Assembly (NCBI GenBank): GCA_026770575.1
Contig: MU657182.1
Span: 52,960 to 116,959 of the forward strand
Origin: Pelagophyceae sp. CCMP2097
Taxonomy: Eukaryota > Sar > Pelagophyceae
Direction of reading: 5' to 3'
DNA: 64,000 bases
Shown here: piece by piece, positions 1,926 to 63,400 of the stretch
How the letters are laid out: each line of letters starts with the position of its first letter
Numbering within the stretch: position 1 is the stretch's first letter
The notes under the pieces: model-generated
Database searches by the model: none
The model's input: only the letters and a program-made list of their open reading frames with translations
Told to the model about the DNA's origin: nothing
Program-made: the position numbers and the translations under genes

Positions 1926-4900
1926 ATGCACAAGTTCCGGCCCCGCGCGTTTCCGGCGGGCCTCCTGCCGGCGGTCCGTCGTTTCGCCGGCCGCACGGCG
2001 GCGCGGGGTTCCACGGACCAGCCGCAACGCCCCGACGGCAAGGCAGCGGCGATCGCGCTGAACCAGCAGCTCGTGGCGAGCGAGCGAGCCGCCGACGTCC
2101 TGTTTCTCTTCAAGGACAAGGGCGGCGAGTTCAACCACGTCAACCTCGCGACGGCGCTGCACCGCCTCGGCAAACTCGGCCGTTCGTTCGAAAGGTCCTC
2201 TATGCCGCTCCTGCACAAGTTGGCGGAGCGCGCTGCATCGAGCATTATCAACGATTCAAAGCAGTGGGCGTCTCGGGGACTCGCGAATGCGTGCTGGGGC
2301 GTCGCCAAGATCGGCAACGTCGAAGCGCCGGCGCTGTTCGAGGCGGTCGCCGCAGATGCGCCAAAGAAGATCGCCACGTTCGACTCGCAAGCGCTCGCAA
2401 ACACCGTGTGGGCTTATGCGAAAGTGGGAGCCAAGGCGCCGGCGCTGTTCGAGGCCGTCGCCGCAGAAGCACCAAAGAAGATCGAGACGTTTGTGCCGCA
2501 ATCCCTCGCGAACATCGTGTGGGCCTATGCGACGGCGGGAGTCGAGGCGCCGGCTTTATTTGAAGCGGTCGCCGCAGAAGCATCAAAGAAGATCGCGATG
2601 TTCNNNNNNNNNNCGCCGCAGAAGCATCAAAGAAGATCGCGATGTTCGACCCGCAAGCGCTCACGAACATCGTGTGGGCCTATGCGACGGCGGGAGTCGA
2701 GGCGCCGGTGCTGTTCAAGGCAGTTGCTGCAGAAGCACCAAAGAAGATCGCGACGTTCATTCCGCAGGCGCTCGCGAACACCGTTTGGGCTTATGCGACG
2801 GCGAGCGTCGAGGCGCCGGCGCTGTTCGCGGCAGTCGCCGCAGAATCATCAAAGAAGATCGCGGCGTTCAATTCGCAAAACCTCACAAACACTGTGTGGG
2901 CTTATGCAACTGCGAGAGTCGAGGCGCCGGCGCTGTTCGACGCGGTCGCTGCAGAATCGTCAAAGAAGATTGCGACGTTCAAGCCGCAAGGCCTCGCAAA
3001 CACCGCATGGGCTTATGCGACAGTGAGAGTCGAGGCGCCGGCACTGTTCAAGGCGGTTGCCGCAGAAGCATCGAAGAAGATCGCGGCATTCAATTCTCAA
3101 GACCTCGCGAACACTGTGTGGGCCTATGCGACGGCGGGAGTCGAGGCGCCAGCGCTGTTCGAGGCGGTCGCCACAGAAGCACCTAAGAAGATCGCGATAT
3201 TCGACCCGCAAAACCTCGCGAATACCGTGTGGGCTTATGCAACGGCAGGGGTTGAGGCGCCGGCGCTGCTCGAGGCAGTCGCCGCAGAATCATCCAAGAA
3301 GATCGCCATGTTCAATTCGCAAGACCTCGCGAACACTGTGTGGGCGTATGCAACGGCGGGAGTCGCGGTGCCGGCACTGTTCGAGGCTGTCGCCGCAGAA
3401 GCACCAAAGAAGATCGCGGCGTTCAATTCGCAAAACCTCGCGAACACCGTGTGGGCCTATGCGGCGGCTAGGGTCGAGGCCCCGGCGCTGTTCGAGGCCG
3501 TCGCTGCAGCATCATCGGAGAAGATTGCGACGTTCACTTCGCAAAACCTCGCAAACACCGTGTGGGCTTACGCAACTGCTGGAGTCGCGGCGCCGGTGCT
3601 CTTCGAGGCGGTCGCCGCAGAAGTACCGAAGAAGATCGCGACGTTCAATTCGCAAGCGCTCTCGAACATCGTGTGGGCTTTTTCAACGGCGGGATTCGAG
3701 GCGCCAGCGCTGTTTGAGGCGGTCGCTGCTGAATCATCAAAGAAGATGGCGACGTTCGATCCTCAAGCGCTCGCAAACGTCGTGTGGGCTTATGCGACGG
3801 CGGGAGTCGAAGCTCCGGCGCTGTTCGAGGCCGTCGCTGCGGCATCATCGGAGAAGATCGCGACGTTCAATTTTCAAAACCTCGCAAACACCGCGTGGGC
3901 TTATGCAGCGGTGGGAGTCGAAGCGCCGGCGCTGTTCGCGGCCGTCGCTATAGAAGCATCAAAGCAGATCGAAACGTTCGACACGCAAGCGCTCTCGAAC
4001 ATCGTGTGGGCTTATTCAACGGCGGGAGTCAAGGCGCCGGCGCTGTTCGAGGCGGTCGCCGCAGAGGCACCAAAGAAGATCGCGACGTTCAACCCACAGG
4101 ACCTCGCAAACACCGTGTGGGCTTATGCGACGGCGGGAGTCGCGGCGCCGGTGCTGTTCGAGGTAGTCGGCGTAGAAGCACCAAAGAAGATTGCGACGTT
4201 CAGTTCACAAGCGCTCGCGAACACCGTATGGGCCTATTCGACGGCGGGCGTCGCGGCACCAGCGCTCTTCGAGGCGGTCGCCGCGGAGGCACCAAAGAAG
4301 ATCGCGACGTTCAATTCGCAAGAGCTCGCGAACACCGTGTGGGCTTATGCGATGGCTGGCGTCGCGGCTCTGGCGCTGTTTGAGGTGATTGCTTTGAGAA
4401 TCGGAGCAAAGATCAGCGAGTTCAGTTCCGATGCGCTTTCTCAGCTGCACCCAGTCTACGTTCATCTCCGACTGGAGGCGCCGCAGCACGCATTGACTTT
4501 GCTCCTGAGTCGGCACGAGGCCGACCTTCGTGCAGCTTATAGTCGTCTAGAGCCGAGCCCATCTCGATCGCAGCGCGATGCGTCGGCGGCGCTCTCCCGC
4601 ATTGGATGGGCGCACGAGTTCGAGCACGTCACTGCCGAAGGGATCAGCCTCGACATGGCTCAGCCGGCTTCAAAGGTCGCTGTGGAATTCGACGGTCCGA
4701 CCCATTATCTCGTGGGTTCCTCGGCGGATGACGTTCCGACTCGCGTGCTCGACGGCAAGTCCAAGTTCAAAACGAGACTGCTCCGCCGTCTGGGCTGGAA
4801 GCTGGTCCGCGTGCCTTACTTTGAATGGCAGACGCGGTCGAGTGCCGAACGAGAAGCGTACCTGCGCGACGAAATGGCCGACGCGTTCAGTCCGAGACGA

Positions 4901-5116
4901 GACGCCGCCGTCCAGTCAGCGGACGGAGGCGATGCGTCGGCGACGACGGGCGAGGCTGCGAGCCGCGAGTGCGGCGAAGCAGCGTACTCGCAGATGATGG
5001 TCAAGGATCTCAAGGCGCTCTTGAAAGAGCGCGGCCTCAAGCAGGCGGGCCTCAAGAAGGAGCTCGTGCGGCGCCTCGAGGACGAGGACCAGAGGCCGAG
5101 GGAAAGGCTGTCATAA
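1926..5116 (+). CDS. RAP-domain protein with about 19 tandem 37-residue repeats and a C-terminal SAP domain
   Basis: The ATG at 1926 opens a basic, Arg/Pro-rich N terminus typical of an organelle targeting peptide. From about 2270 to 4440 there are about 19 copies of a 37-residue (111-bp) repeat with the core LANTVWAYATAGVEAPALF, like the helical repeats of RAP/FASTK/octotricopeptide-type organelle RNA factors. A RAP domain follows (AVEFDGPTHY at about 4678, then GWKLVRVPYFEW at about 4794). A SAP helix-turn-helix (MVKDLKALLKERGLK) precedes the stop. By family, the role is likely RNA processing or translation in mitochondrion or plastid. Ten Ns at 2604-2613 break the frame. The 34 bases before and after the Ns are identical, and overlapping them restores one continuous frame, so I treat this as one gene. 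Repeats are nearly identical at DNA level, implying recent homogenisation. Confidence 0.88.
2604..2613. other. Assembly gap (10 N) inside the RAP gene
   Basis: The run of N is flanked by identical 34-base sequences (2570-2603 and 2614-2647) from one repeat unit. The gap therefore most likely separates overlapping contig ends, or hides an unknown number of repeat units. Confidence 0.9.
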
Positions 5117-6380: not shown

Positions 6381-9300
6381 ATGGGCCTCCCTCTTACAGA
6401 GGACGAGATGATGGCCCTCGCCGTAAGCAACTCCAGGGTCTCCGGCGAGCCTCTGCACGAGGCCGACCTCACGGCGCTGGACGACGTGATCACTTTATTG
6501 CACGAAGTGCTGGACGACCCGAGCGCGACGGACGACGCGGCTGACTTGGTTCACGAACTGGGCAACAAGTGCGCCGCGCTGTCAAGGTGCGCCTTTGTCC
6601 GGCGGTAATGCATCCTCCGATGCATCGGAGCCCAAATGCATCGCCGACGGCATGGCCCCCCCGACGCCCTTTGACACTTTGACGCCGCTCGACGCATCAT
6701 AGACGCATCGATAGGCAACTGTCGCTGGCCATCGACGCAGAGGCCGCGCGCGAGGCGGACGGCCGGCGCGAGGCGTACGTCGCGCAGCTGATCGGGCTGC
6801 AGGAGCGCGCGGTGGCCGTACTCCGGAGCGCGGGTATCGAGGCGCCGACGCACCCCCACGACGAAAGCCCGCGCGCGCCCGGCGAGCAGCGGTGAGCAAA
6901 TCGCGTGACGCCGTCGACGGCGGACGATTTTCCGCCGATTCTGGTACTTTTCGTAGGAGCACGCTGCTCAGAGACATCACGGGCCTACGCAGCGACCAGC
7001 GGCCGCGACGGTGCGCGCTGCCGTCCCTACCCCAAAGTGGGCACCCGGTGTGAAGCACGCGTCCTGCGCGGATCCGCTTTTTGAAGCAGAGCGCTTTGAA
7101 TACCACTCGCAGGCAAGCTGCGGCGGCGCGCCTGGCCGTGGGCGTCCGGCTGGCGATGCGTTCGGCCAAGGGCACGGCGCTGCGCGACGCGGCGGCCATG
7201 GGCGCTCTGGGGGCGCTGGCGTCTGCGTTTACGGCGGCCGTGAAGCATAACGAGTTGGAAGTGCGTCGCAAACTTCGCGAAGCGTCGTCGACGCGAGCAG
7301 GAGAGCATTTTGGGGGGCGCGCACAACGACGTTTTTGTTGGAATAGGTGCAGCACTCGGCGGCCATCGCCATCGCCGCTCTCATCCCGACGGAGCACGAG
7401 CCGACGACGCTGCTCCAGTACGCACCGGCGCTCCTCGACGCGCTGCGCGTCGCTCTCAAGGCGCCGACGGAGGCGGCTGCGGGGTCGACGTCCTCGGACG
7501 TGCACTCGGTGGCCGTCGCCGTGGCGCATTTCACAGTCCTGCTCCAGCAGGGGTAGGTGCCCTCGAGGAGAGGACTAGATTGAGCCCCCGTCGGCTCCTC
7601 GTGAAGACCCTGCCTTCTAGATGGGCGGGCGACCAGGACGACCTCCTCTGCGCCGCCGCAAACGCGCCGGGAAACGGTGCGTCTTTTTGAGATGCGTCTT
7701 TCGTAAGAGGTTTCCCCGAGAGGACGCGCCTGAGACCGCGAGGGCACCGTAGAAGCCGACGCCCGCGTTTTAGGCGCCGCGGACAAGCACCAGCCTTGGT
7801 TCGCGGCGGGCGATTCTTTTTTGGGCGACGCGCCGGAACCGAGCCCGCCGCCGTCGCCTGCGTGGCGGCAGAAGCGCAAGACTGACCCCGCAAACCCAGC
7901 CGCCGTCGACGCCCGCGCCGCCGCCGTCGCGCAGCGCACGCTCGACGCCCTCGCCGCCGCCTGCTGCGACGCCGCCATGGCCACGTGCCGCGCCAACAAA
8001 CGGCCGTCGCTGACGCCGACGCTCGCCGCCGCGCCGCCGCCGCCGCCTACAGACGGCGACGCGGGCACCGACGCCCTCGTCGCGTTTGCGCTCGCCAACC
8101 TCGCGCAGCTGCCCGCGGCGCGCGCGCTCCTCGTGCGCCGCGGCGCGCTCACCGCGATAGCGAGCTGGTGCGTTTTGTATTCGGGATTTGGTTGTCGGAC
8201 CAGGGCTCGGAGGCCACCGACTCGGAGCGAGGGCGTGCCTGAGGCGCCATCGTCTCAGGCTTCGGACGCGGCCGTGCTCGGAGCTGCACAGGCACGCGGC
8301 GGCGGCGTTGGCGTCGCTGTGCGGCTCGGCTGGTGAATATGGAGACATTTTGAACAATGAACCTCTCAGCGGCGCGATGGGCGCCCTCAGCCACGTCCTT
8401 GAGCCCGTCGACGTCCACACGCGCGGGTGAGAGGTTGGCCGCGGGGGAAGGAGACTGACCGCGAGCGACGTCGGTTGTCTTGTGAAAAAGGAGAATGGGA
8501 CGCGGGCACCAAAGATCGCCCGTGCGCCAAATATGCGCCCCAGGTGGATCGACGCGCGCATCGCCGTGACCGGCGGCGCGACACCGTGTCGACGACGGTC
8601 GGAAAATCCGTCGGACAAGGGGTGATTCTGGAGCGAGGTTGCGAAATACGTTAGGCGCTCTCTCGGCGCTGCTGCCGCTGGCGCGCGCCCCCATCGCCAC
8701 CGTGCGCGAGCACGTCGCCGCGGCCGTGGCGGCGCTGGCGTCGCGGCCGCCGAACCGGCCGGCCATAGTCGCCGCGGGAGGGCCCGCGGCGCTGTTGGAC
8801 GTGCAAAACCCGCGTCCGACATGCCCGTCGGGAAACCGTCGCGGGGAACAGTCGTGAGCAGAGGCGATGCCCGAGGGGAGACTCCATCATCCGCGCGTCG
8901 TCCTCGTGCGGTCGGCCGTACCGCGGTGAAGGGGTGATGCCAGAGCGAGCGCCGGCATGCCGTCCGATGAATGTGCAACAATACATCCAGGTGCTGACCC
9001 GCGCGGCGCGCGACGTGCGCGTGGCGCAGCGGTACGACTGCGCGGCGCGGCTGTGCGAGATGTCAATTTGCGCTTTGGAGAGTTTAGCTCTGGAGGTTGT
9101 CTTTGCCGAGCCGGACGACATGTCACGCGGAGATTACGACGGCGACGACGACGACGAGGCGCGCGACTCCGAGCTGGCCGCAGACGGCGACGCGCCGCCG
9201 CCGCCCGAGGAGCCGCCGTCGCCGGCGTCGTCAGCGGCGTCGCGGGCGTCGTCGCACAGAGCGGACGGCGCGCGAGTCGGGTCTAAGTTAGTGGACAAAG

Positions 9301-12300
9301 GCGCTCTCTCACTTTTCGTCGCCGTCGCCTGCCGCGCGCCGCCGCGGACGTCCCTCCGCTTGGCCGCGGTGCGCGCTCTTGCAGTGCTGTCCGACGATGA
9401 AAGAGGCTGCGGGGCGTCGTTGTGGCACAAATATTTTGAAACCTCTGAAATGCCCATTCCAAAGCGCCTCTCCAACTCGGGCGGCGGCGACGACGACGAC
9501 ACCGAGCGCTACAAGGCTCTCTACGCGCCCGCGGTGAGCGCCGACGCGGATGAGATTGCGGGAAAACCTTGCTTGCTTCAAGTAACATCCACCGAGGGTC
9601 CCTTGCCCGCAGCACAACGCACCTTGCCCGACGTGTCGTTGCCCTCTAGGCGGTCGACGTCTTGGTTCGGCTGGGCGCGTCGCTGGACCACGAGCACGAC
9701 GAGCCGGGCGCGCAGACGCGGAGCGCTTCGTCAAGGCGGAGCTCGTGGTGCCTCGATGAAGACGAGGCGGATTATAATTATCCAGCTTCTGCGGACCGCC
9801 CGGACCTCGCAGTCGACGCCATCGAAGCGCTCCACGTCGCCTTCGTCCTCGCAAACGTCGCGTGCGTCGGGACAAGGCGGGGGGGCGTTTGTTGAAAGGC
9901 AGACGCTGTAGGTCGCAGCCGGCTCTCGCGGAGCGTTTAGTGTGGCGGCACGGCGCGACGCCGGTGCTGCTGCACATGCTTCGTTCGAACCGGCTGGCTT
10001 TAAAGGCGCAGGCGCTGCGGGCCTTGGCGAATCTGGCGCCGCCGCTGTTGCAATCGCCAGCGCGGAGCCGATGGACGCCCGAGGGCGACGTCCTCGACGT
10101 CGACGCCGCCGCCGCAACCGCGGCGGCCCTCGTCGACGCCGCGTTGGCCGCGTTGGACGCGAGCGTGAGCATGTGCAAGGACCGCAGCTTGGACGAGGCG
10201 GAGCTGGACGTGCGCAAGAGCGCCCACGCTTGGAAAACGGGGCCCCGTCCTTTGTTTCGCATGTTCTTCCAGGATGCCCTCGTACGCCGCTCTAGGTCTC
10301 GGAGCAGCTGGTGTACGAGGCTGTCCGGTGCATAAAATCTTTAGCCTACGCGGAGCCTTTGCGGCAGCCTCTGGTATCCCGGGCCTTGAAGCCTCTTCTC
10401 AGCATTGCAATCGACGCGCGCGGGTCTTCGGCGCAGCTGCGAGCTTTGGCAGAGGCGGCGCTGGTGACGTTGGGCTTTGAAGGCGGCGCCCGCGATTTGG
10501 AACTGTGCGGCAACGACGCGCGCCTCCTGAACGAGTGGTTCTTGCTTCGCCGAGCTCTAGAAATCCAAAACGCCCTGCACCACGACTACGCCCGAGCTCT
10601 CGCTTATAACTGGCCCTACGACGACGACGAGGCCGAGGCCCCCGAGACCAAAATGCCATTGGCTTTAGTGCTCCGCCAGGGCCACCGGCGGCACTCCTCG
10701 GGAGCCGACGGCGACTGGACGGACGCTCTCCGGGCCACGGTCCGCAACATCCTCCTCAACCCGCTGGCCGTCGCGCGGTCCGGCGCGCTCTTCCGCTGCG
10801 GGTCTACGGATGCTCTATTTGAAGAAGGTTTCGACTTTGACATGTTGCCGCAAGGCCTGCTCCCTGTGCGGTCTTTGCTCGGGCCGGCTCTGGCGGGCGT
10901 GGCGTCCCCGCTCGCGCCGCGCGACGCGCGCCGGCCGCGCGGCGTCTCGGCGCGCGCCGCCTCGGAAGAGGTCCCGGAGGCGCCGATGCTGGGCCGACGG
11001 TCGAAGACGGTCTCGGACGCCGCGGTCTCAGCTTCCGAAGATCGCTCGTCGGGCGAGTTGCGGCCGGAGGAGGCGGAGGACGACCTCGAGCGCAGCGTCC
11101 TCGGCGCGGCGGCGGCGCTGCCGGCGTGGTGGGCCGCCGCACGCTCCGAGTTAGAGGCCAAAGCTGCAACGCAGGCCGCCGCGGGCGACGCGGCAGCGGA
11201 CGAGGCCGCGGACGAGGCCACTTTGGAGCCACCGCCGCCGCCGCCGCCGCCGCCTCCGGAGGGGCCACCGCCGTCGCCCGTGACGCCGGCGCCGCAAAAG
11301 GAGGTGCTGCCGCCGCCGACTCCCGTTGCCGCGCCGAAAGCCGCGCCGGAAGAGGAGGCCAAGGAGCCAGGGGGCCAGCCCGCAAGGAAATGGCGCGTGG
11401 CCATCAAGGCCGTCGTGGCTCTGGTGCGCATGGGCCGTGCGGAGGGGCCCGAGGCTGACCGCTTTGGGACGTACGACGCCGGGGACGGCCCTCCGCCGCC
11501 GGCGGTGCAGCCCAGCGACGCCAAGCTGCGCAAGTCCGCGACGTTCAACGACGGCCCGCCGTTTTCGCGCGAGGGCGCCGCGCCGCCGAAGATGACGCTG
11601 ATGCGGCGGACGTCTTCGGCGTCCCCGACGACTTCGCCTCAAAACGCGGCCGTCGCGGCCGCAGAAGACCTGCCGCCGTTGACTTTACGGAGGTCGGCTT
11701 CCGCGACCGCCTCGGAGCCGCGCTTGTCGCCGCCGCATGGCCGCTTTTCCACGCCGACGGACGACGGCGAGCCGCACGCGCGGCTTTTGAAATCTCTCAG
11801 AGCGCATTTCCCCTGCAGTCTGCAACGCCGAGCGGTGGCGCCGCTGCACCGGCTGCCGGGCGGCTCGGCGACGTGGCACCCTTCCGCCATGCGCGTCGTG
11901 GCGCTGGCGTCGCGGCAATACTTTAGCTTTGCTCGGGAAGCGCGCGTGATCCACCGTCTTGTCGGCGACTCTACGGAGCGGTGGGGCTTGGTCTTCCGGG
12001 AGTCGCGCTTCGCGGGCGAGTTCTGCGAGTTGTTGCTCTCGTGCCTCGCGAGCGTCGTGGCCATTGAGTCGCTGACCTTTGTAAACACGTTGGCAACGCA
12101 CCCCGCCCAGACTCCTGCCCAATTATCCTTTTTTGGAGGCGACCAGCGCGAACCCGAGCTGCACGCCTCGACGGTCCTGGCCTACCTCGTGGGCGCGCTG
12201 CCGCAGAGCGTGCGCAGCGTCACGCTGGACCGCGCGTTGGGCCGGGACGCTCTGCAGATTCTCGGCATTCTGCTCCGAACGGCGGAAGAGCGGAGGACCA

Positions 12301-15300
12301 TCGCTCTGCGCAAGCTCAACTTTGAGATTGCGGAGATGGAGGACGGCACCGCCGTGACACAGCGCGACTCGTTGGACTCTGGATCGCTGGACTCTGGATC
12401 TCGGACCAAGGAGTCGGACCCCTCGAGCCGCACCACTTCAAAGGCGAGAAAGCTCATGCGCATGAAGGAAGCGCTGACGCCCCTCGCCGACGGCGGCGCC
12501 TCGCTCTCGCTCCTGGCCGTGTGCAACCACGACCATTTGAAGCCGGACGATTTTACGAGCTTGCTCCTCTATCTCGAGGCCTGCCAAGTCCCAAAGCTCC
12601 CAAAGAGCGTCGCCGTCGGCTCGGCCTTCAGCAGGAGCCTGAGGTGGCTCGACTTGTCGGGCAACAAGCTCGGCGACGCCGGGGTGGCGCGCGTTTTAAG
12701 GTGCTTGGATCGTCCGGACTCGCCCGTCACGGCTCTTGACGTCTCTGGAAACGCTCTCGGAGCCTTTGCAGTGAGCACTCTCGAGGCTTTATGCCGCGCG
12801 GCGCGCGGCGGCCACGCGGGCGCGCTCTTCTGCGGGGCGAAGCTGCGTTGGCTCTCCCTCGCCAACAACGCCCTCGGGCCGCGCGCCGCCACCAAGCTGC
12901 TTCAAGCCTTGACCGACCAACCTCGCAGAGAATTGAATTCCTCTCTTCGGGGCCTCTCGCTGGCCGGGTCGAACCTCGGGCCCCCCTGCGTGATTGGGGC
13001 CATTGCGCAATTGGCGACGGCTCTTCGTTTATTGGCGCATTCTCCCGGACTTTTGGAGGAACTCGACGTCAATCGATGCCGTTTGATGCAGGACTGCGGC
13101 AAGGAGCTCTATCTCGGACTCGTCTCCTCGCGGAGCAACGGCGTCGCCACGCGAAAAAGGACGAATTCGAGCGCCGTCAAGGCCACGGCAGCGGCGGCTT
13201 CCTTGTCCGGAAACCCAGAGTCGAAGCACGACGGCTTCGCCTCGGACGACGGCGGGTCCGAATCGGACGACTCGGACGACGACTGCTCAGACTACGCCGC
13301 GCACGAGAGCGAGTCCGACGATTTACCCCTCGGGCCCGGCGCCGCCAAACGCGCCAAGAACCCACGGCTCTCCTTTGTCCGCTTGGCTTCGGGCAATTCC
13401 ATCTCGCCGGAAGACGTCTGGCTGATCCGCGACGAGCTGCGCGAGACGCGGCGCGCGCGAGTCCGGCGCGTCGCCGTCAAGCAAAAGCGGCGAGTGCACG
13501 CTGTGGTGGTGGCCGCGCCGCTGCCCTTTGACGACGGGCTGCCCTATGACGTTTTACTCGAAGCGCCGGTGATGGCCACGGCTGTCGTCGAGACCCCCGC
13601 GGCCGCGGCAAAGGTCGCCGTCGACGCGGCGCGCGGCCCGCCTACGCCGCTGGCGGCGCCGGACGCCGCGCGCCCGGCGTCGCCGCCGTCGCCGCAGGGC
13701 CGCGCGCCCGCGCGAAGGCACCACCACCGTGGTCGGTCGGACGGGGAGAGCGACTCTTCATCTGAATCGTCCGACGAGTCCGCGAGCGACGACGACGGGG
13801 CGCCCGAGTCGGAGAAGAAGGCGGCGGCGCCCGACGACGCCGAGCCGCGCGGCGACGGGGCGCCGGATTCAAAAAGCAGGCCGGCTTCATGGTCCGTCGG
13901 AGAATCGCAGCGGCAAAGACCGTCTAGGAGAGTCGTCCAGGCCAAGGAAGTGTACTCGGTCTGCGCGCTCTTCGCGGCGCCGCTGGCATGGCAGGACTCG
14001 ACGGGGGCGCTGCACGCGATCGAGGGCTTAGACTTTGACGCAGAGAGGTTAGCAATCACCCAGGCTTTGGACGATGCGCGCCGGTCGCGTTTCGGCGTCG
14101 GGGTGCACTTCGACGTGGCCACCACGCAGCGCCTGCAGTCGTACTTGACACTTGGAAAATGCGACGTTTTGCATTACAGCGGCCACGGCCACCCGCAGTG
14201 CTTGACCTTCGAAGACGGCCGCGGAGGACTGCAGCCGCTCTCGCCGGCGAGCTTGGCCGCGCTGGTGGCCAACGCCGCCGCGGCCGCGACGGCGACGCAC
14301 GCTGCCGCGCGGTCGGGCGTCGGGCGTGCCGACCCTCCGCGGCCGAGGCTGGCCTTCGTCTGCGCATGCCATTCGCAGCAAGCCGCTCTGGCCTTCGTCG
14401 CCGCCGGCGTGCCGCACGTCGTCGCCGTCGCTCTGAACGACAAGATCCAGGACGCGGCGGCGACTGCCTTTACAAGGGCGTTTTATCTGGCGCTGTCCGT
14501 CGGCGAGTCCGTCTCCGAAGCCTTTCAGGTCGGCGTCGACGCAGTCGCCGCGTCCCCGCATTCCGCCGCCGCAGCCGCTTCGGAAGTCGGCGCCTCTGGC
14601 CTCTCGGCGGCCAAGCAGCGCGCTGGGTTGAGGCTCGGGGGGGCGTTCGAAGCGCAAAAGTTCGTCCTATTACCAGAGGACGCGCCGCACGACGAGCGGC
14701 TCTTCCCGCGCGTGCGGCGATCCACGCGGTCGACGGTCAAGCCTCTACCGGCGCCGACGTGGCCGCCGCGCGCGCGCGACGAGGCGCGGTACGGGGCCGT
14801 GGCTCCTCCGCCGTCGGCGCCAGACGACTTTCTTGGCAGGGAAGTCGACACGTACAAGGTCGTCGAGCTCCTCGGCCGCAGGCGCAGGCTCGTCTCTGTG
14901 ATCGGGCAGCCGGGCGTGGGGAAATCGGCTCTGGTGGCTGCTGCTGCTAGATACGTTGCCGAGCGGCGTTTTTTCGAGGACGGTGTCGTGTTCTTAAGGT
15001 GCAGCGGCGCCACGTCCGTCGACTATGTCGAGAAGAGTTTGCGCGCTGCGTTGGCGCGGGTGCACGGCGATAAGGAATTGCCGGAGAAGGCCTCGACGAC
15101 GGAGGAGAAGCACTCTTCATCGTTTTATTCGCTTAGAGACGCTAAACTCCTCCTCGTCCTCGACGGCGTCGAGTCCATCGACCGCGGCGAGTTGCGCGTC
15201 CTGCTGAACCAGCTGCTGGACGACGCGCGCGGGGCGTGCGTCCTCCTCTCGTCGCGCGGCTCGCTCTGCCGCGCCGCCGCCGCGGGGGCCGCGCCGGGCT

Positions 15301-15998
15301 TGGCGCCGGGCGGCGCCGGCGCCACCGAGTCGCTCGTGCGCCTCGGGCCTTTGTCGCTCCGCGCGGCGGCGCGGCTGTTCGCGCGGCAGTGCCCGCAATT
15401 ACACACGGCCGCGGACCGGCGAAACTTCCATTCCCTCGTCGCGGCGCACCCCCAAGACGCGTCGTCGCGTGCTCTCCGGGCGGCGCTCAAGTCGTCTGAC
15501 AAACGCACTCGGCGGTCGGCGCAGGACACGCCCGGCGCACGGGAGAAGAGGGCGCTCCTCGCCCTCGGCAGCGGCTTCCCTGGGTCCATCGTCGCGCAGG
15601 CCTTTGACACGACGCGCGACGGCCTGCAGCACCTCCTCGACGTCGCCGCGCCCTCGGCCGACGACGCCGCCGAAGACGCCGCCACGCAGGCCGCGGAAGA
15701 GGCTACCGACGGCGACTCCCGGAGCACCAAGGACGCGGCCGGAGCGACCAAGGACGCCGCTCCGGCCGCCGCCACGCCCGCGGCCACCGCCGCAGCACCC
15801 GCGGCCACCGCCACGACGCCCGTGCCCACCGCCAGAACACTCGCAGCGCAGCCCGGCGGATCGCCGCTCGACGCGGGCCAGCGCCGCGGCGCCGCGCGCA
15901 GCCCGACGCGCAGCCCGACGCGCAGCCCGACCGGCGGGACGCGCAGCCCGATCCGCGCCGCCGCCACCGACGACGCGGACCCGCCGGCCGATGCATAA
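6381..15998 (+). CDS. NLR-like ARM-LRR-CHAT-NB-ARC protein (13 exons)
   Basis: Thirteen exons join in phase into about 2,778 residues: 6381-6586, 6715-6891, 6957-7010, 7113-7260, 7353-7552, 7621-7676, 7774-8167, 8292-8426, 8638-8800, 8991-9581, 9650-9861, 9912-10209, 10296-15998. Residues 1 to about 1000 are armadillo-like helical repeats (for example HGATPVLLHMLRSNRLALK). A Pro/Ser-rich linker follows, then ribonuclease-inhibitor-type LRRs at about 1460-1824 (SLRWLDLSGNKLGDAGV). A CHAT protease domain spans about 2095-2300 with the catalytic pair HYSGHG (His 2175) and ACHS (Cys 2236). An NB-ARC/STAND ATPase spans about 2388-2660 with Walker A GQPGVGKS (Lys 2421) and Walker B LLLVLDG. The tail is low-complexity with SPTRSPTR repeats. 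By family, the ATPase would oligomerise on sensing and activate a caspase-fold protease, so an immune or regulated-death role is inferred. The start could also be the ATG at 6321, and exon 9 may begin slightly differently. Confidence 0.82.
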
Positions 15999-20719: not shown

Positions 20720-21668
20720 ATGGTGGCTCCGATGGCCGACGTCATGCCGGCGCAGTCGACGGGCAAGGTGCGTGCAGCGACGCCACTTCGGGGGAGCGAA
20801 GAGCACCGTCCGTTGTTCCGGGACTGGGGCTTCTCGTTTCGCGGCGGACGTCCCTCTCGAGAAGGAGAGGCTTGTATCCCCGCGAGTCTATCCCCGCGAG
20901 TCGGTTCTTTGAATGATATACGGCTCGTAGCGCCTGGGCGACATATTGTCTTCCTTTGACTCGTTTGACGCGGACATGCGGGTCGGCACGCGGCAGCGGC
21001 GCGAGAAAGACGAGTTCAAAGTCTTCCAGATGCAGGAGCACATGTCCGCGCTGGAGCGGAGGTTGGAGACGGAGATGCACCGCCGGTCGGAAGTGGGCAA
21101 ATCGATGGCCAAGTGGTGCGACAAGCAAATCGACGAGACGCGCGCCTCGATGCGTTCAGACGTCGCCGTGCAGCAGAAGGAGCTGCAGGCCCGCGTCGAC
21201 GCGCTGAAAGAGCGGCTCAGCGACATGCAGCAACGCTTCGCCGTGGATATCGAGGCCATCCCCTTGGATATCGAGCAGCGTGGCCGCGAGCTCGCCGCGC
21301 GTTTGAAGCACTCGATGGAGGACTTTGAGGGCGAGTCGGCGTCGCGCCTCGACCGCGAGGCGGCGATGAACGCTTTGCTGGCGGACCAGGCTTCCGACGT
21401 GGCCAAGCGCTTCGACTCTGGCCGCACGCAGAGACAAGCCGCCTACGTCGACAACCGCAATTTGCTCGACGACCACGTGCGCCGGCGCACAAAGGCCGAC
21501 GAGGCCTTAAAAGCGACGCTGCACGAGGACATGGCCTCGTTGACCAATTCGATCACGATTGAAGCGAAAGCACGGTGGCGCGAGGACGCGGAAGTCGCGG
21601 ACGCAATGTCCGCCTACGTCGACCGCCTGCAGGACTCGCTCAGGGTCGTCAATTCCGACATTGTCTAA
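20720..21668 (+). CDS. SF-assemblin-like flagellar root striated-fibre protein
   Basis: Exon 1 (20720-20767, MVAPMADVMPAQSTGK) splices in phase 0 to exon 2 (20931-21668), giving 261 residues. After a short non-helical head (ILSSFDSFDADMRVGTRQRR), nearly the whole protein is a continuous coiled coil with the spacing of SF-assemblin/beta-giardin rods (EFKVFQMQEHMSALERRLE). Length matches the family. These proteins polymerise into striated fibres attached to basal bodies. This implies that the organism builds, or once built, a flagellar root. Confidence 0.8.
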
Positions 21669-23993: not shown

Positions 23994-24452
23994 CGCCCGA
24001 CGCGCGGCGGGAGGCGCCCGAGCCCGCGTCGCAAGAGACCTTGGATCAAGTGGCAAATTTGCAAAGCCCGCCGATTTTCAGCGACAAGAAAAGTGGGGTG
24101 GTGTGTTCAAGCGGTGGGTCGGTCAAATCTTTCATCGGCTTGCCGACGTCGGTGCGCACGTGCACGGACGCAGGACCACCGCGCCGGGAGAGGCCGCCGT
24201 CGACGCATTGACGCAGGAAGGCATGCGACTCGCCGGCGACGGCGGTGCCGCGCCGGCACTCGCCGTCTTCGAGCAGGCCGACCTCTTCAAGATCATCCTG
24301 CGGCTGGCGGCGGAAGAAAACGCCGCGCAGCGGCCTCGCCGTTACTGATGCCGGTCTGTATTTGTTGTGACGGAGAACGGTTTGCATTCTAGTGCAATTG
24401 GCCTAGGAGGCCCGACAGCCACTCGTCAATCTTTAAAATGTTTAAATACAAG
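23994..24452 (+). other. Upstream region with a fragment resembling the 5' end of the WD40 paralogue
   Basis: A 41-codon frame from the ATG at 24223 to the stop at 24348 reads VFEQADLFKIILRLAAE. This matches the N-terminal LLTPILRLTAN of the WD40 gene at 34.2 kb. A second diverged version of the same segment lies at about 24449-24480. The block may hold the first exon of the WD40 gene at 24.45 kb, or a broken duplicate of it. No clean donor is visible. Confidence 0.4.
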
Positions 24453-25465
24453 ATTTTGACCGACTCCTGCGGCTGCCGGCGGCGCCACACGGGCTCCTCG
24501 TGACGAAGCAAGTCGTTCGCGATGCGCCGGCGGTGGCGCTGGCAGTGCGCAAACTCATCTGGCAGGACCGCACTTTGAAGGGCACGGCAATCCTCAAGGG
24601 GCACACCAGCAACGTCTTCAGCTGCGCGTTTTCGCCCGACGGCAAGCCCATCGCGACGACGAGCGGTGACGAGACGGCGCGGCTCTGGGACGCCGAGACC
24701 GGCGTGCTCCTGCTGAAGTTTGAGGGGCACACCGACAACGTCCTCTGCTGCGCGTTCTCGCCCGACGGCAAGCACCTCGTGACGGCGAGTGGCGACGAGA
24801 CGGCGCGGCTCTGGGACGCCGAGACGGGCGCGCTGCAGACGACGCTCGATGGGCACACCAGCGGCCCCGTCTTCTGCTGCGCGTTCTCGACCGACGGCAA
24901 GCGCCTCATGACAGCGGGCTACGACATGACGGGGCGACTCTGGGACACCGCCACGGGCACGCTGCAGACGACGCTCGATGGGCACCACGGCCCCGTCCTC
25001 TGCTGCGCGTTCTCGCCCGACGGCAAGCGCCTCGTGACGGCGGGCTACGACATGACGGCGCGGCTCTGGGACGCCGAGACGGGCGCGCTGCAGACGACGC
25101 TCAAGGGGCACACCGGCGTCGTCGTCAACAGCTGCGCGTTCTCGCCCGACGGCAAGCGCGTCATCACGGCGGGCAGGGACAAGACGGCGCGGCTCTGGGA
25201 CTCCGAGACGGGCGCTTTGCAGGCGACGCTCGAGGGGCACACCAACTGCGTCAGAAGCTGCGCGTTCTCGCCCGACGGCAAACGCGTCGTGACGGCGAGC
25301 TACGACAAGATGGCGCGGCTCTGGGACGCCGAGACGGGCGCGCTGCAGGCGACGCTCGAGGGGCACACCGACTGTGTCCTCTGGTGCGCGTTCTCGCCCG
25401 ACGGCAACCGCGTCGTGACGGCGAGCTCCGACAAGACGGCGCAGCTCTGGAATGTCGCACTCTAA
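24453..25465 (+). CDS. Seven-bladed WD40-repeat protein, 5' end unresolved
   Basis: Seven consecutive WD40 repeats of 41-43 residues follow the prefix RKLIWQDRTLKGTAIL. Their consensus is GHTxxVxxCAFSPDGKRLVT, then ARLWDAETGALQTTL. They form one complete propeller ending LWNVAL and a stop at 25465. Repeats are almost identical at DNA level. No ATG precedes the first blade in frame; the frame opens after TACAAG at 24452, so an upstream exon is needed (candidate 24223-24348). The paralogue at 34218-35512 shares the N terminus (SKHVARDARAV versus TKQVVRDAPAV) and the same C-terminal end. Such propellers are protein-binding scaffolds; no partner can be named. Confidence 0.75.
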
Positions 25466-56625: not shown

Positions 56626-59600
56626 ATGTCGGAAGCCGCGCTGGCGCGGTCGCGCGCCGTCGTGGCGCAGCTCGGCCACCGCCTAGCCGCGATCCGGGGC
56701 CGCGCCGTGCGGAACCTGGTCTCGAAGCTGGACATGGGACTGATTCAACTCGAGGACCTCGACGTGCGTGACTCCCGCCCGGGGGACCTATACACTGCGT
56801 TCGTTCGCCGACGCCTCGGCGCATAGGCGGCGGAGCTCGCGGCGGCGCTGTGCGTTTGATATCGTTTGCCACGCGCGATTGTCGTCTTGATTCAAACGCT
56901 AGGCTGGCCTTCGTCGAGTCTGACGACTCGCAGACCGACACCGCGGGCCTGCGCGACGCGGCGGCCGTGCTCGTCATGCTCCTGGAGCGGCACGCCCTCG
57001 GCCGAAACGCGCTGCACGACGCGGGGACCGTGGCGCGTTTGGAGAGAGTGGCCGTGGCGGACGACATGGCGCGCGAGGCAATCGAGCGCGTTCTCCGAGG
57101 TCTGCTGCGGTCCTCCCCGCAAAAGGCGCGCGCACCACCGGCCAAGGGTAATGGGGCCTTGGACGATATATTTGAGGTGACCAAGTCGCCTAAGAAGGCC
57201 GCGGCGCCGTTCGTCTTCGAAGATTTGGAAGACACGCTCGGCAACGAAGCCGACGCCGACTACGACGCCACTGCGTTTCAAGAGGATTCGCGGTCCGAGG
57301 AGGACGAGGTCCTCCCGGAGTTTGCGGTGACGGCGCACGGCTGGGCCTGCGCCAAGGCTTATCTGTCAAGAGGCGACGAGCGCGCTCTGATTGAGATCGA
57401 GGACCGCGTCTTCACCGTCCTCCGCGCTCTGCGGCGCGACTCGGCGCTGGTGCGCGAGTCACCAGCTGAGATTATTTCCTGGCTGAGGGCGTGGCCCATG
57501 GCAGACTTCCCCTCGAGCGTCTGGCTCCAGAGGCCAAAGTGCCTCCTCGCCCTGATCGACGTCTGCGCAGCGCCCGCCTCGGGCAAGATCGCAGACGGCC
57601 TGGAGAGGCTGCGCGCCCAGGCGGTCGAAACGGTGCTCGCCATCCTCCGGGCGGTGCTCCTGGTGGACGTGCCGCTGGCGCTCGACGCCTCCATGGCCTC
57701 GCAGCGCTCGCCGCGCGCCGCGACGAAGAGGCGCTACCCGCCGCCGCGGTCCGCCAACGGCCAAGTCGACGACGAAGCCTCGGACGACGAAGACGAGGGC
57801 GATGCGCGCCTCTTCGGAGACCAGAGCCGCGGGGCGCCCATCTCCGTCGCGGGAGCGTGCTGCCGCGCCTTCGAGGCGGCCGCGAGGTCAGTTGCCGCAT
57901 TCGGCAATTGGTCGGTCAAAGAGCCCGTTGCATTCGGTCAAAGAGCCCGTTTGACGCGAAGGCGATAGGTTACTGTCCAACACGTCCGACCCACGCGTCC
58001 GCGTCGTCGCAGCCGAGCTCGTCGACGTCGTCGCGCCCTTCGTCAAGGAACCCCCGAGACCCGCCGCCGACGAAGACCGGACGAGGCCCGACGTGCGTCT
58101 CCTCTTTGACTCTTGTACTGCCCTTTTTGACGCGTCTGTGTGAAAAACGCAACCCTTGGTAGGCCGACGGCTCCGCGGCGTCGGCGCTGGACGCGGCGCG
58201 CCTGTCGCGGTGCCTCGCGGCGCTCGAAGCGGCGCTGGCCTCGTCGACTGCGCGGGACAGCGCGGTGGACGGCGTCGAGTCGCTGCGGCTCGTCTCGGAA
58301 CGAATCCTCGCCCTCTCGCTCAAGCTGCCCTTTGGCGCGGCGCCGCTGCCGCCCAAGCTCGCCGCGCTACGCCTCGCCGCCTTGGGCGACGCGGCGTTGC
58401 TGCACCGAAAGCCGGACCTCTTCAAGGTCCTCGCCGGTGCGACTGACGCACGGTGCGCTGCGGCGGCGAAAGCGGCGTTCCGCGACGCCGCGCTCGCGGC
58501 GCCGCTCCTCCCTGGCGGCGCGCACGCTTTATACGCCATTGACCAGCTCGGCGCCGCGCAGCGCCTCGTCGAGGCTTTTGTGGCGTACGACGTGTTGGTG
58601 GCTGAAAGAAGCGGCGGCAACGACGTCGACGGCGACGCTTCCTTCGGCGAATCGTACGACGCAGAGGCGGCGCGGTCGGCGCGCGTTTCCGGCGATTCGC
58701 GCGCGGCGAAAGCGTTGGAAGACCCGCGCCTCGCCGGCGTGGGCGGCGCGTCGGACGCGCGCGCGACGGTCACCGCCCTCGTCGACCGCATCGTCGGCGC
58801 CTGGGCCTCGTGCGCCGCCGCAGCGTCGGGCGACGCCTTGAATGCGGCGCTCAGGGACGCGCGCCTCGGCTGCGTTTTGCGGCTATTTGCTTCTCAGTCT
58901 GCCTTCATACGCAGAAGAGCAGTCGAGTCCGTCTCAATGTGCACTTTTGAATACGCCGGCGACGAAGCGCAAAACGGCGTCGTCCTCGGCGGCCTCGCGC
59001 AGGCGAACGCGGCGCCGCTGCGCAGTTGGCTCCTGCGCTGCGGGTGCTGGAGTCTGGACGCTGCCACTCGTCAGGCTTCCAGGACGGTCCTGGCGAAACT
59101 TTTAGAGGCCACACCGGCCTTCGAGGCGCCGACGTGGCACCGCGCCGACGACGCCTGGTTCGAGGTCCTCGGCCTCGCGTGCGGCGGCGAGAGGCTCCCG
59201 CTCGCGCGCCAGCTCTTCTCGAACGACGAAGCATCTCGGAAAAGCGCCGCAAAAGCGCTGCGTTCGCACTCCGAAGATCCAATCGGCGCCCTGCGGCGGC
59301 GCGGTCTTGCGCCCGTGCATGCCGTGCCCGACGACGCGTGCAACACGCAACAGCTCGACGACTTCTTTTCGCGCGTCTTCGGCCGCGCTTCCAACGACGG
59401 CGCCGTTTCAGACCTCTGCGGCGCCATCCTCTGCCACGCGCAGCTTTGCGATTTGGACAGGCTGGCCGCGCAGCTCCTCGCGGCCGGCGCGCCGCCGTCC
59501 GGCGGCGGCGACGCGCGCGCCAAGTGCATCAATGCGCTCACTTCGCGTGGTTGCCTGCGGCGGTGCGCGCTCGCCGCCGTGGAGGCGGCCGTCGACTGCC

Positions 59601-62600
59601 TGCTCCCCTACGTGCTCGGCGCGCCGCCCGACGACGCGCGGGGCCGCTCGGACATTTCCCACGACTGCGCCGTCGCGCTCTCATCAGCGCTCTTCGACGC
59701 AGACGGGCCGTGCTGGCACTCGGGGCCGGCGGCCGGCGACGGCTTTTGCGTCTCCGCGGCGGCCCTATCGACGTTTTCAACTTTGGCGAACAACTGGACG
59801 ACTGTGCACCCTTCCGAGCGGCTCGCCTCGGCCGACGACGCCGTGGATTTGTACTACGCCTCTGAAGCGTCTGCCTTTTGCGCCAAGCGCGCCGCGACGA
59901 CTGCGCTGCGGTGGTGCGCGTTTGAGGCCGACGAGGGCGCGTTTGAGGAGGACGACGGCGCCTGGGACGATTCGCGCCTGGCGAAGCTGTGCGCATCGAC
60001 TTTAACAAGAGCGGCGACGCGCCGGGTTTACGGCGATGCCTTGTGCGACGTGACGCAGTGGCTCGCGGACGCCGACGCGCGCCGCGCGTTTTCCAAAGAG
60101 GCGTGGCACGAAGCGTTTAAACGACCGCTGACCATTTCCCCACAAGGCCCCGCGGAACGGCTCCTCCTCGGCCACGCGCTCGGCGCTCTCCGGCACGTCG
60201 TTTCGAGCCTCGACCGCTGCGACCATCGGTGGGCGCAGGTTTTACATGCTCTGAACACCGTCATAGCCCCAGCCGCTTTAGCCTTCCCGCCTTCGAAGAA
60301 GCCGCGCAAGAACGACGAGCCGCGGTCCAAGGCGAGCATGCACGACGAGGACTTGATGGCCGGCTGCTGCGCCTTTATCGTCTCCGTCTGCGATTCTTCC
60401 ATTTCGGGTCGCGCGCGAAAGGCCTTGGCGGCAGCAAACGTCGTCGCGCCGCTCGCGGCGCAACACGTGCGCGCGCCGTCGCGAAGCAACGGCCACACGC
60501 CTCGAGCGCTGCGCTGCGCGTTGGCCGTGCTGGAGCGGCTGCTGCCGCACGTCGCCGATTCCACGGCAATCGATCTTTTAAGGAACGGCGAGCCGGCGCT
60601 GCTGCGGAGGCTCCAGGCCCTCTGCTGTCAGCCGAGGCAGGAGTCGTTCCTCGGCCGCGGCGTGGCAGTCGCCGCTCTGAAATGCTGCAGAGCCGTGGCG
60701 CAGACGTTCGACCTCGGGGCCAACGCCTGGCTATTGAAGCGCGCGGTGGACGGCGACGCCACCTTGGACTGGTGCACGCGCATGGTCCAACACCGAGACG
60801 CAGAGATGCGGTGCCGCGCAATCGCGTTGGTCGCCGAGTTCGCGACGCGCTACGCCTGGGCGCGGCGCGTGGCGCTCGACTGGGCCGCCTCGCCGGCGCT
60901 GCTAGCGGCGGCGACGGACTTGACGGAAGCGCCCGCGGTCCGAGGCTCGGCGCTCTCCTTCTTCGCCGCCGTGGCGCGCCTCCGAAGGAGCGACCACGAC
61001 GCGGACTGCCTCGGGCCAATCGCCGCCGCGCTCCGGCCGCTTTTATGCGACGAGGAGCCGACAATCACGGCAGCCACAGTCTGCGCCGGCGCCGCCGAAA
61101 TCGCACTCGCGCTCGCGACTCCGGCGCTCGCAGCAGGGCCGGCGCTCGCCGGTCCGACGGCGGCGGCGTCCGCGCCGTCGTCCGACGAGGCCGGCGAGGC
61201 GGCGGCGCACGAGCCAAAGACGTTTGAGGGCGCGGCGGACCTCGCTTTACGGTTGATGCCGCGGCTCGTGGCGTGGCGCGACTGCTTCGACGCCGGCGTC
61301 GCACAGTGCGCGGACGTTGACGCGCAAGCGGGTCTCTTCGTTGGCGACGCTGAAGGCTGGGCTTTAGTCGTCGACCAGCGCCGTTCAAAGCGGCAGGTCG
61401 CGCACGACGTCGCGACGACGCTGGCGCTGCGCGCGGCGAGGAAGCTCGCGCAGACGGACGTTGAGAGCCGCGATTCGCTTTTGCGGAAGACGGCCCTGCT
61501 CGCGCGCTGCGTCGAGACGCTCGCCGAGGCCTCCAAGAGGCTCGTCCTCGAGGCGTGCGCTTCGTCGGCGGCGGCCGTCGCGTCCGAGGCCGCGGCGGCG
61601 ATTGCGGAGCTCGTCTATGGAGACGTCACCGCTCGACTTTCGCAGCTCACGACGACGACTTCGCTGCTGCGCGACGACTCGCTCGTGCCGCGCGAGGTCG
61701 CCGACGCGGCATCGAGGCTCCTCGCGCACGGCGCCGCGCAGCCGCAGGCGCCGGCGAAGACGGCCGCAATCGTCTCGGCCGCGCGCCTCGCGCACGCCCT
61801 GAGCGCATCCCCACGGTGGCGCCGCATGCGGCCCTGCGATTCGCTCGTGCGCCTCGGCGTTGAACTCGCGCGCAGCTACCTCGACCTCGACGACGCCGAG
61901 GACGACCTTTGCGAAGCGCCTGGCCCCAACGAGGCTGATGAGGCGCCGCGCTTCATCGTCGCGACGGCGCTGGCAACGGTGCTGGATTCCAACGCATCTT
62001 CCCGCGAGTGCGCCGAGGCGCTGAACCTTTGTCGCAAGCTGGTTGCAAAGCTGAAGGATCTTGCCAATTTATTGGATGACCTCGTCGATGTGACTTTGCG
62101 GCCGGGCCACTTCCCGGCGAATACGCACCCCGCCCTCCTCGCCGCCTGCTCCTCCGACCGGCGGCGGAGGAGGCAGCCGGTGCAGCTGGCGTCGTCAAAA
62201 ATGCAATCGACGCTCTTATGTCTCCGGTCGCTTTTACGGTCCGACGCATCTCGCTGCGCGGCTTTAGAGGTCGACGTTGCCTGCGAGCTCTCGCGCGCCT
62301 GGCGCGCTTTGGTCGGCGCTGGGGAAGTGGCTTCCGACTGCTTTGAAGTTTTGCTGGGCTGCGTGGTCAACTTGGCCGCGGGTGACTCCCAAGCCAAGCG
62401 TGCAATCGTGGCGCCGCCCACGGGCCTCGCTCAGCGCGGTTCTTCCAGACTGTCCCTGGCGCCCTGCGCGCCGAAGCGGCAGCATACGTCGCCAACGAGC
62501 ACTTTGGCGCACCGACTCATCGACCTTTGCCTCCGCAGCGACAAATCGTTCCCAACAGACGAAACGCCGCAATCGCACGACGTGGAGCGGTCTACGACTC

Positions 62601-63400
62601 GCGCGAATTTGGCGGCGGCGGCGCTGCGCCACATCTCAAGCGAATATGTATTGCTCCAGGGCTCGTTCATCGGAGACGTCGTAATAGCAATACGCCGCCT
62701 CGCAGCCACCGCCGCCGCGCCGTTCTCAGGAAGCCACGCGCACCGCGCAGCCGTGCTTTCAAGGCGAAGAGCCGCCTTCTCCAGGGCGCTCTCACTTTTG
62801 CGGCTTTTGGTCTCGATGACCATGTTCGCCGAGGCTCAAAGGGCTTTACTGGCGCACGAGCAGACGCCCGAGCTTTTAGCGGATTTGGTGCACTACTACG
62901 GCGCCTCGCAGCCGCGGAAAAAGAGTTTGGCGTCGCCGCGGAGTGTCATGGATGACGACGACTCCGCGCCGCGCGGCCGCGCGCGCGGCCAGGCGCGCGC
63001 CGCCGAGTTCACCGCGCTGCTGCTGCGCAACCTCTCTTTGCTGCGGCGCAATAAAGCGCGGATCCTAGCCCAGCCGCCCTTGATCTCGTTTCTGTTGGAC
63101 CTCGGCGCATCTCCGACATCGACGGCGGGCGCCGTTTCGGCGGCGACGTCGGGCTTGTGGGCGCTGCTGCACCACAGTGAAAAGGCGCGCATGCTGCTGC
63201 GGAGCGATTCGGAGACTGCGGCGCGTCTGAGAGCGGCAAAGGCGCACGTCGACGCGAAATGCCTCGTCGTCGGCGCCGACGACGACGACGACGACGGCGA
63301 CAGCGCGGAAGAAGACGACTGCGCCGCGCTGGCGACGGCGCAGCGCGCCATCGCCGCCGTGACCGCGCTCTTGGCCTCGCCCGACTCGGACGAGGAGTAA
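56626..63400 (+). CDS. RTTN: Rotatin (RTTN/Ana3-type centriole and cilium assembly protein)
   Basis: Five exons (56626-56763, 56827-56849, 56903-57886, 57969-58092, 58163-63400) join in phase into 2,168 residues, close to the animal protein of about 2,200. The N terminus is the rotatin signature: VVAQLGHRLAAIRGRAVRNL, then VSKLDMGLIQLEDLD. The rest is armadillo/HEAT-type helical repeat, for example LFASQSAFIRRRAVESVSMC, ALNLCRKLVAKLKDLANLLD and RARGQARAAEFTALLLRNLS, LLRRNKARILAQPPLISFLL near the C terminus, with acidic ends (ADDDDDDGDSAEEDDC). Rotatin is needed for centriole elongation and ciliary basal bodies. Exon 2 is only 23 bp but its phase fits both neighbours. Confidence 0.85.

Follow-up and report, generated by a model that had tools for sequence, protein, structure and literature searches.

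A predicted ARM-LRR-CHAT-STAND protein in a pelagophyte alga, a candidate sensing-activated protease

A single gene of the alga Pelagophyceae sp. CCMP2097 is predicted to encode ARM-type helical repeats, ribonuclease-inhibitor-type LRRs, a CHAT caspase-fold protease and a STAND ATPase of the NACHT/NB-ARC class, in that order. It lies within a 64,000-nucleotide stretch of DNA (assembly GCA_026770575.1, contig MU657182.1, positions 52,960 to 116,959 of the forward strand), which is called the window here and whose own numbering is used. Judged from its sequence, the algal gene is a candidate for a protease that is switched on by sensing. Viruses and stress kill diatoms and related algae in large numbers, and the sensor that would trigger such death is, to our knowledge, largely unknown. 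A conserved one-chain sensor-protease-ATPase in diatoms makes the question of a death sensor testable, and it shows that the building blocks of an NLR can be put together in the opposite order.

Gene model and domains of the window protein

The gene model was obtained by splice-aware alignment of a homolog, P0001 (3057 amino acids, aa), to 6381-10.5 kb, with GT-AG introns only, as the method imposes. It runs from the ATG at 6381 to the stop at 15998 with no internal stops. The ATG was adopted from an earlier note on this DNA, and the N-terminal residues resemble, by eye, the start of P0001. The same note had counted 13 exons and placed the catalytic Cys at residue 2236, for which the model substitutes 14 exons, His 2198 and Cys 2259. 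A run guided by a second homolog, P0002, had 8 of 12 introns in common with the P0001-guided model; because it otherwise differs and is broken by one in-frame stop, the borders of exons 1-3, 6-7 and 10-12 are provisional. Homologs P0001, P0002 and P0003 match the window collinearly, from about 7.1-7.9 kb to 15.8 kb. LRR, CHAT and STAND all fall within one open frame, so their order is read directly from the DNA. Frame residues below are counted along that frame and model residues along the whole protein.

6381..15998, + strand: whole gene, predicted; 14 exons, 13 introns, 2801 aa, from the P0001-guided splice-aware alignment
Introns 1-7: 6587-6702, 6892-6956, 7011-7112, 7261-7346, 7553-7620, 7677-7734, 8168-8258
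Introns 8-13: 8427-8543, 8588-8654, 8801-8990, 9534-9649, 9862-9911, 10210-10295
6961..10592, + strand: ARM-type helical repeats, model residues 134-1000, exons 3-14; family profile match
10296..15998, + strand: last exon, a single stop-to-stop open frame of 1900 codons with LRR, CHAT and STAND
11781..13121, + strand: conserved YFSF segment and ribonuclease-inhibitor-type LRRs, model residues 1397-1843; phmmer and family profile
13122..13946, + strand: linker between LRR and CHAT, acidic and rich in serine and proline by sequence, probably disordered
13947..14705, + strand: predicted CHAT caspase-fold protease domain, frame residues 1218-1470; Pfam six-frame scan and fold comparison
14184..14186, + strand: predicted catalytic His codon, frame residue 1297, model His 2198
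14367..14369, + strand: predicted catalytic Cys codon, frame residue 1358, model Cys 2259
14811..15665, + strand: STAND ATPase (NACHT/NB-ARC class), nucleotide-binding domain and first helical domain; Pfam and fold comparison
14922..14924, + strand: Walker A Lys codon, frame residue 1543 (K1543)
15162..15164, + strand: Walker B Asp codon, frame residue 1623 (D1623)
15666..15998, + strand: low-complexity Ala/Thr/Pro/Arg tail and stop codon, carrying no domain

The order ARM-LRR-CHAT-STAND in one protein, which the earlier note had proposed, is borne out by the shared exon, by the unbroken spliced model and by the ARM part: a profile from which its four nearest relatives (P0001-P0004) were excluded gives it 95.6 bits (E 2.4e-30), and the highest score among 20 shuffles was -0.5. 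The ARM assignment in the window relies on this family ARM-region profile, the Pfam Arm scans having covered the relatives rather than the window's N-terminal part, and an ARM profile of 20 relatives matches designed ARM and Vac8 ARM structures. The LRRs match ribonuclease inhibitor in phmmer (E 6.9e-5) and are of the type that NLRs share with that protein.

The CHAT fold with both catalytic motifs, likewise part of the earlier proposal, was recovered. HYSGHG occupies frame residues 1293-1298 and CACHS 1356-1360; they align with LHFIGHG and NAC of the SAVED-CHAT structure 8tl0, and the fold also matches caspases. Both the caspase/separase fold and the HxGHG His and Cys dyad of the CHAT peptidase family (clan CD) are thus present. 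Pfam CHAT scores 28 bits (cut-off 24) at 14037-14531 in a six-frame scan of the genome and is unlisted in the whole-frame scan of 10296-15998. A sequence search of the PDB with the window CHAT-STAND part alone found no CHAT, its matches being to P-loop proteins such as Clp and Lon. As to the ATPase, the claim of intact Walker A and B motifs holds for the window species (Walker A is GQPGVGKS, frame residues 1537-1544), but its naming as NB-ARC needs qualifying, NACHT scoring better in Pfam. Over cut-off in frame 10296-15998 are NACHT (38.5 bits, cut-off 26.7), AAA_16 (33.6, 32.6) and nSTAND1 (27.8, 27.1); just under it are LRR_6 (22.7, 23.4) and NB-ARC (20.5, 23.5), the last reaching 24.4 bits in the six-frame genome scan. 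The domain belongs to the NACHT/NB-ARC class, with a fold nearest CED-4/Apaf-1.

Spread of the architecture and conservation of its residues

Three homolog searches gave 167 distinct homologs, or 168 sequences with the window model. The searches scored only about 8,000 candidates sharing most words, and one list holds the best 120 of 135 matches, so that family counts are minimum figures, biased towards sequences resembling the queries. With family ARM and LRR profiles built from 20 of the counted sequences, ARM, LRR and CHAT-STAND were found in the same order as in the window in 145 of the 168; the survey of relatives that the earlier note had suggested therefore reveals a layout that is not peculiar to one alga. 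The remaining 23 comprise two with LRR followed by CHAT-STAND and 21 that match the CHAT-STAND profile only, in part or whole. Both CHAT and ATPase are certain in 141, because four of the 145 (P0014, P0063, P0064, P0099) have no aligned Walker A. Independent Pfam scans of 20 relatives detected CHAT in 16, NACHT in 16, LRR_6 in 13, ARM_ARMC5 in 10, Arm in 8 and SPRY in 2. The full set of parts occurs in the diatoms Thalassiosira exigua, Seminavis robusta, Nitzschia inconspicua, Entomoneis paludosa and Proboscia alata (entry P0035, taxid checked, with all four parts), and also in a protein labelled Psemu1, which we take to be from Pseudo-nitzschia multiseries. A partial Thalassiosira sp. AJA248-18 protein extends only as far as CHAT. 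Source annotations of the relatives, where given, read hypothetical, unknown or NACHT-domain protein.

The catalytic His and Cys are each kept in 145 of 145 ARM-LRR-CHAT sequences. Across all 168, each is present in 162 and the other six are gaps: for His, P0075 and five proteins without CHAT in the Pfam list; for Cys, six such proteins. The Walker A Lys position is more variable (Arg 127, Lys 34, gap 4, and Leu, Cys and Ser once each). In a tree of 157 sequences, with 11 of the 168 left out and the root chosen by us, the Arg-bearing sequences fall in one diatom-holding clade of 131 tips (support 0.905), whose exceptions are two Lys, one Cys and one Ser. The Lys is thus replaced in 129 of 131 members, whereas the window and its sisters retain it, and a canonical ATP/ADP switch is therefore not to be assumed for the family. 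The sensor-1 Arg was considered as a second lost ATPase residue and set aside for want of a clean signal (Arg in 65 of 131 members of the clade versus 4 of 12 in the Lys-bearing set).

The chain ends soon after the ATPase. The median number of residues after the GxP motif is 23, and in 137 of the 139 members that carry this motif the chain extends no more than 120 residues beyond it; the two longer tails are those of the window (138, mostly low-complexity) and of P0006 (162), whose tag PLAT may stand for the stramenopile Platysulcus, which is our guess. The alignment with CED-4 (2a5y) ends at its residue 353. These short tails and the end of that alignment indicate that the winged helix was lost or is absent, and the window chain stops before such a domain, which belongs to NLRs, could fit. 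When nine pairs of our choosing were compared domain by domain, CHAT (taken together with the linker that leads to STAND) was the most identical of the four in eight; the ninth, window versus P0003, gives LRR 53, NBD 52 and CHAT 51. Conservation within the ARM-LRR-CHAT-STAND family suggests that constraint weighs more heavily on the protease than on the ATP switch.

Related proteins vary the layout. P0072 has a SPRY domain ahead of ARM-LRR-CHAT-STAND, and a weak SPRY also occurs in T. exigua P0010. Relatives P0074, P0076, P0077 and P0078 include kinase-CHAT and SH2-CHAT-NACHT proteins and, from Cafeteria roenbergensis, a protein that combines a CHAT-like stretch with AAA_16; their architectures suggest that CHAT is a reused effector module. 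A NACHT-family NTPase of Thalassiosira pseudonana, Thaps3_24162, is lower in abundance under N or P limitation, according to PMC5599023. It may or may not belong to the ARM-LRR-CHAT-STAND family.

Proposed mechanism, genome context and rival explanations

The reading that we favour, with a probability of roughly 0.55, is that the window protein is a sensor-gated CHAT cysteine protease with a CED-4/Apaf-1-like STAND scaffold. It builds on the domains, their order, the catalytic residues, their conservation and the lack of room for a winged helix; gating, oligomerisation, cleavage and output are the steps that we infer. The N-terminal ARM and LRR repeats would bind either a ligand or a partner that they guard, and would keep the adjoining CHAT inactive, while the C-terminal STAND domain would bind nucleotide and assemble copies of the protein. 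Release of the sensor would then allow CHAT domains to meet and cleave a substrate, and the output, as a first guess, could be stress- or infection-induced cell death. Because the winged helix is absent and the Walker A Lys was dropped in the diatom-holding clade, STAND more likely serves as a scaffold for oligomerisation or nucleotide binding than as a switch driven by hydrolysis.

CHAT-STAND is single copy in the genome. A genome scan gave one NB-ARC match (the gene at 6381..15998), five NACHT matches (the best being the same gene), one metacaspase-family match and 60 chlorophyll-binding matches, which are exon pieces and not genes. The chlorophyll-binding matches point to a photosynthetic alga as the host. 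Recent expansion was rejected, as a CHAT-STAND query returned itself and one weak match (E 0.086). The second CHAT match of the genome (locus L002, contig C131, 910-3336, - strand) covers profile positions 213-289 only and is preceded by an unrecognised part. Gasdermin (PF04598), a candidate substrate, gave no match in the same genome, in a scan whose controls likewise gave none. A viral origin was also set aside: a scan of viral contigs with the window CHAT-STAND alone, which reaches close relatives only, revealed no relative among its 16 pattern matches. Replication-factor-C-type ATPases account for many of the top fold matches in BFVD.

Among GTDB genomes, one CHAT peptide pattern around the His motif, which could overlook closer bacterial relatives whose motif differs, yielded 24 loci. 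The best is L013 (5686-8826, + strand), an EAD7-CHAT-NACHT-TPR protein from an Anaerolineae metagenome-assembled genome and the nearest bacterial CHAT found. Since it pairs CHAT with NACHT in a bacterial protein, the CHAT-STAND pair has the look of an ancient module of the conflict type. In eukaryotes, ARM-LRR would then have been added at the N terminus and the region after STAND lost.

The main rival to a sensor-gated protease is a housekeeping regulatory protease, separase- or TTC28-like, that acts in cell division or trafficking with no immune or death role and uses ARM-LRR as a scaffold for fixed partners. We consider this possible but rather unlikely. The single gene copy and the greater conservation of CHAT than of the sensor in eight of nine pairs are in keeping with it, and RI-type LRRs of the same fold are found in flagellar proteins. 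The fusion to a NACHT/NB-ARC-class STAND domain argues against it, as does the setting of the nearest bacterial CHAT, which sits in a protein with an effector-associated domain, a feature of conflict systems. Two papers lend it weight: most non-anthozoan animals carry one or two TPR-CHAT genes and human TTC28 is linked to cytokinesis (PMC12314368, a coral genome paper), and CHAT is closest to separase (PMC9729208, the Craspase paper). Improbable is a conserved scaffold in which STAND is a pseudo-ATPase and CHAT cleaves only the protein itself; replacement of the Walker A Lys in nearly the whole of one clade and chains that, in almost every member, end too early for a winged helix would suit it, but the His-Cys dyad is never lost among the 145 and the window species keeps Walker A and B. 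That two or more neighbouring genes were joined by exon assembly is very unlikely: the ARM exons do rest on homology and not on transcripts of the source species, and P0002 gave a partly different, broken model, but LRR, CHAT and STAND lie in the single last exon, the homologs are collinear, Proboscia P0035 has all four parts and the layout recurs in 145 of 168.

Other window features, all on the + strand, include a repeat-rich FAST-kinase-like/RAP/SAP protein with a short internal run of unknown residues (2564-5113; FAST_1 98.8 bits, RAP 52.6 bits), an SF-assemblin of flagellar-root type (20931-21665), a WD40 propeller protein (24446-25462) and an open frame of 1745 codons (58163-63397) whose codon use is gene-like and neither half of which matches Pfam.

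Comparison with known systems

Canonical NLRs have the order effector, ATPase and C-terminal LRR, whereas the window protein and the 145 family members are arranged as ARM-LRR-CHAT-STAND. The earlier description as a reversed NLR thus captures the sensor-effector-ATPase order, but the protein is not simply a rearranged NLR because NACHT scores better, the fold is nearest CED-4/Apaf-1 and there is no room for a winged helix. The CED-4/Apaf-1 apoptosome with its caspase is alike in both folds, the algal STAND being nearest CED-4/Apaf-1 and CHAT also matching caspases; it differs in using two proteins joined through CARDs in place of one polypeptide. CED-4 and Apaf-1 have a winged helix, and this domain locks canonical NLRs. 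SAVED-CHAT (8tl0) and Craspase TPR-CHAT share the CHAT fold, the HxGHG and Cys motifs and activation on sensing, but their sensor is SAVED or gRAMP/TPR, and they have no STAND ATPase. Bacterial L013 resembles the algal protein in placing CHAT before a NACHT/NB-ARC-class STAND, with CHAT 37% identical over the best segment, and differs in its N-terminal effector-associated domain and in the TPRs after STAND, where the algal protein has ARM-LRR before CHAT and nothing after STAND.

Stramenopiles also have STAND-TPR proteins that are not known to carry CHAT. Such STAND-repeat proteins have been proposed as immune receptors and share STAND and repeats with the algal protein, but have TPR instead of ARM-LRR and tandemly duplicated genes (2023 work cited in PMC11378527). 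Sensing-gated CHAT proteases are known from CRISPR systems (PMC9729208). In fungi, according to PMC12881547, NLRs occur with a CHAT protease as N-terminal module and a TPR-CHAT protein activates gasdermin. These fungal proteins likewise hold CHAT inside a sensor protein, but they have the order effector-ATPase-repeat or lack the ATPase, whereas the algal order is sensor-effector-ATPase.

Among the matches listed from the open-access literature, no description of ARM-LRR-CHAT-STAND without a winged helix was found. A wider and more tentative possibility, doubtful at present, is that the family forms a separate class of single-chain inflammasome or apoptosome. Stramenopile algae would have acquired a CHAT-STAND core akin to those of bacterial conflict systems, shifted sensing to an N-terminal ARM-LRR and dropped the winged-helix lock; the diatom lineage would have made the ATPase a lysine-less scaffold with the protease untouched, and the result might be the chief protease that sets off regulated death in diatoms. 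The earlier view that the form was undescribed has to be narrowed, since NLRs that carry CHAT are already known from fungi and CHAT-NACHT from bacteria; what is new is the position of the sensor and the ATPase.
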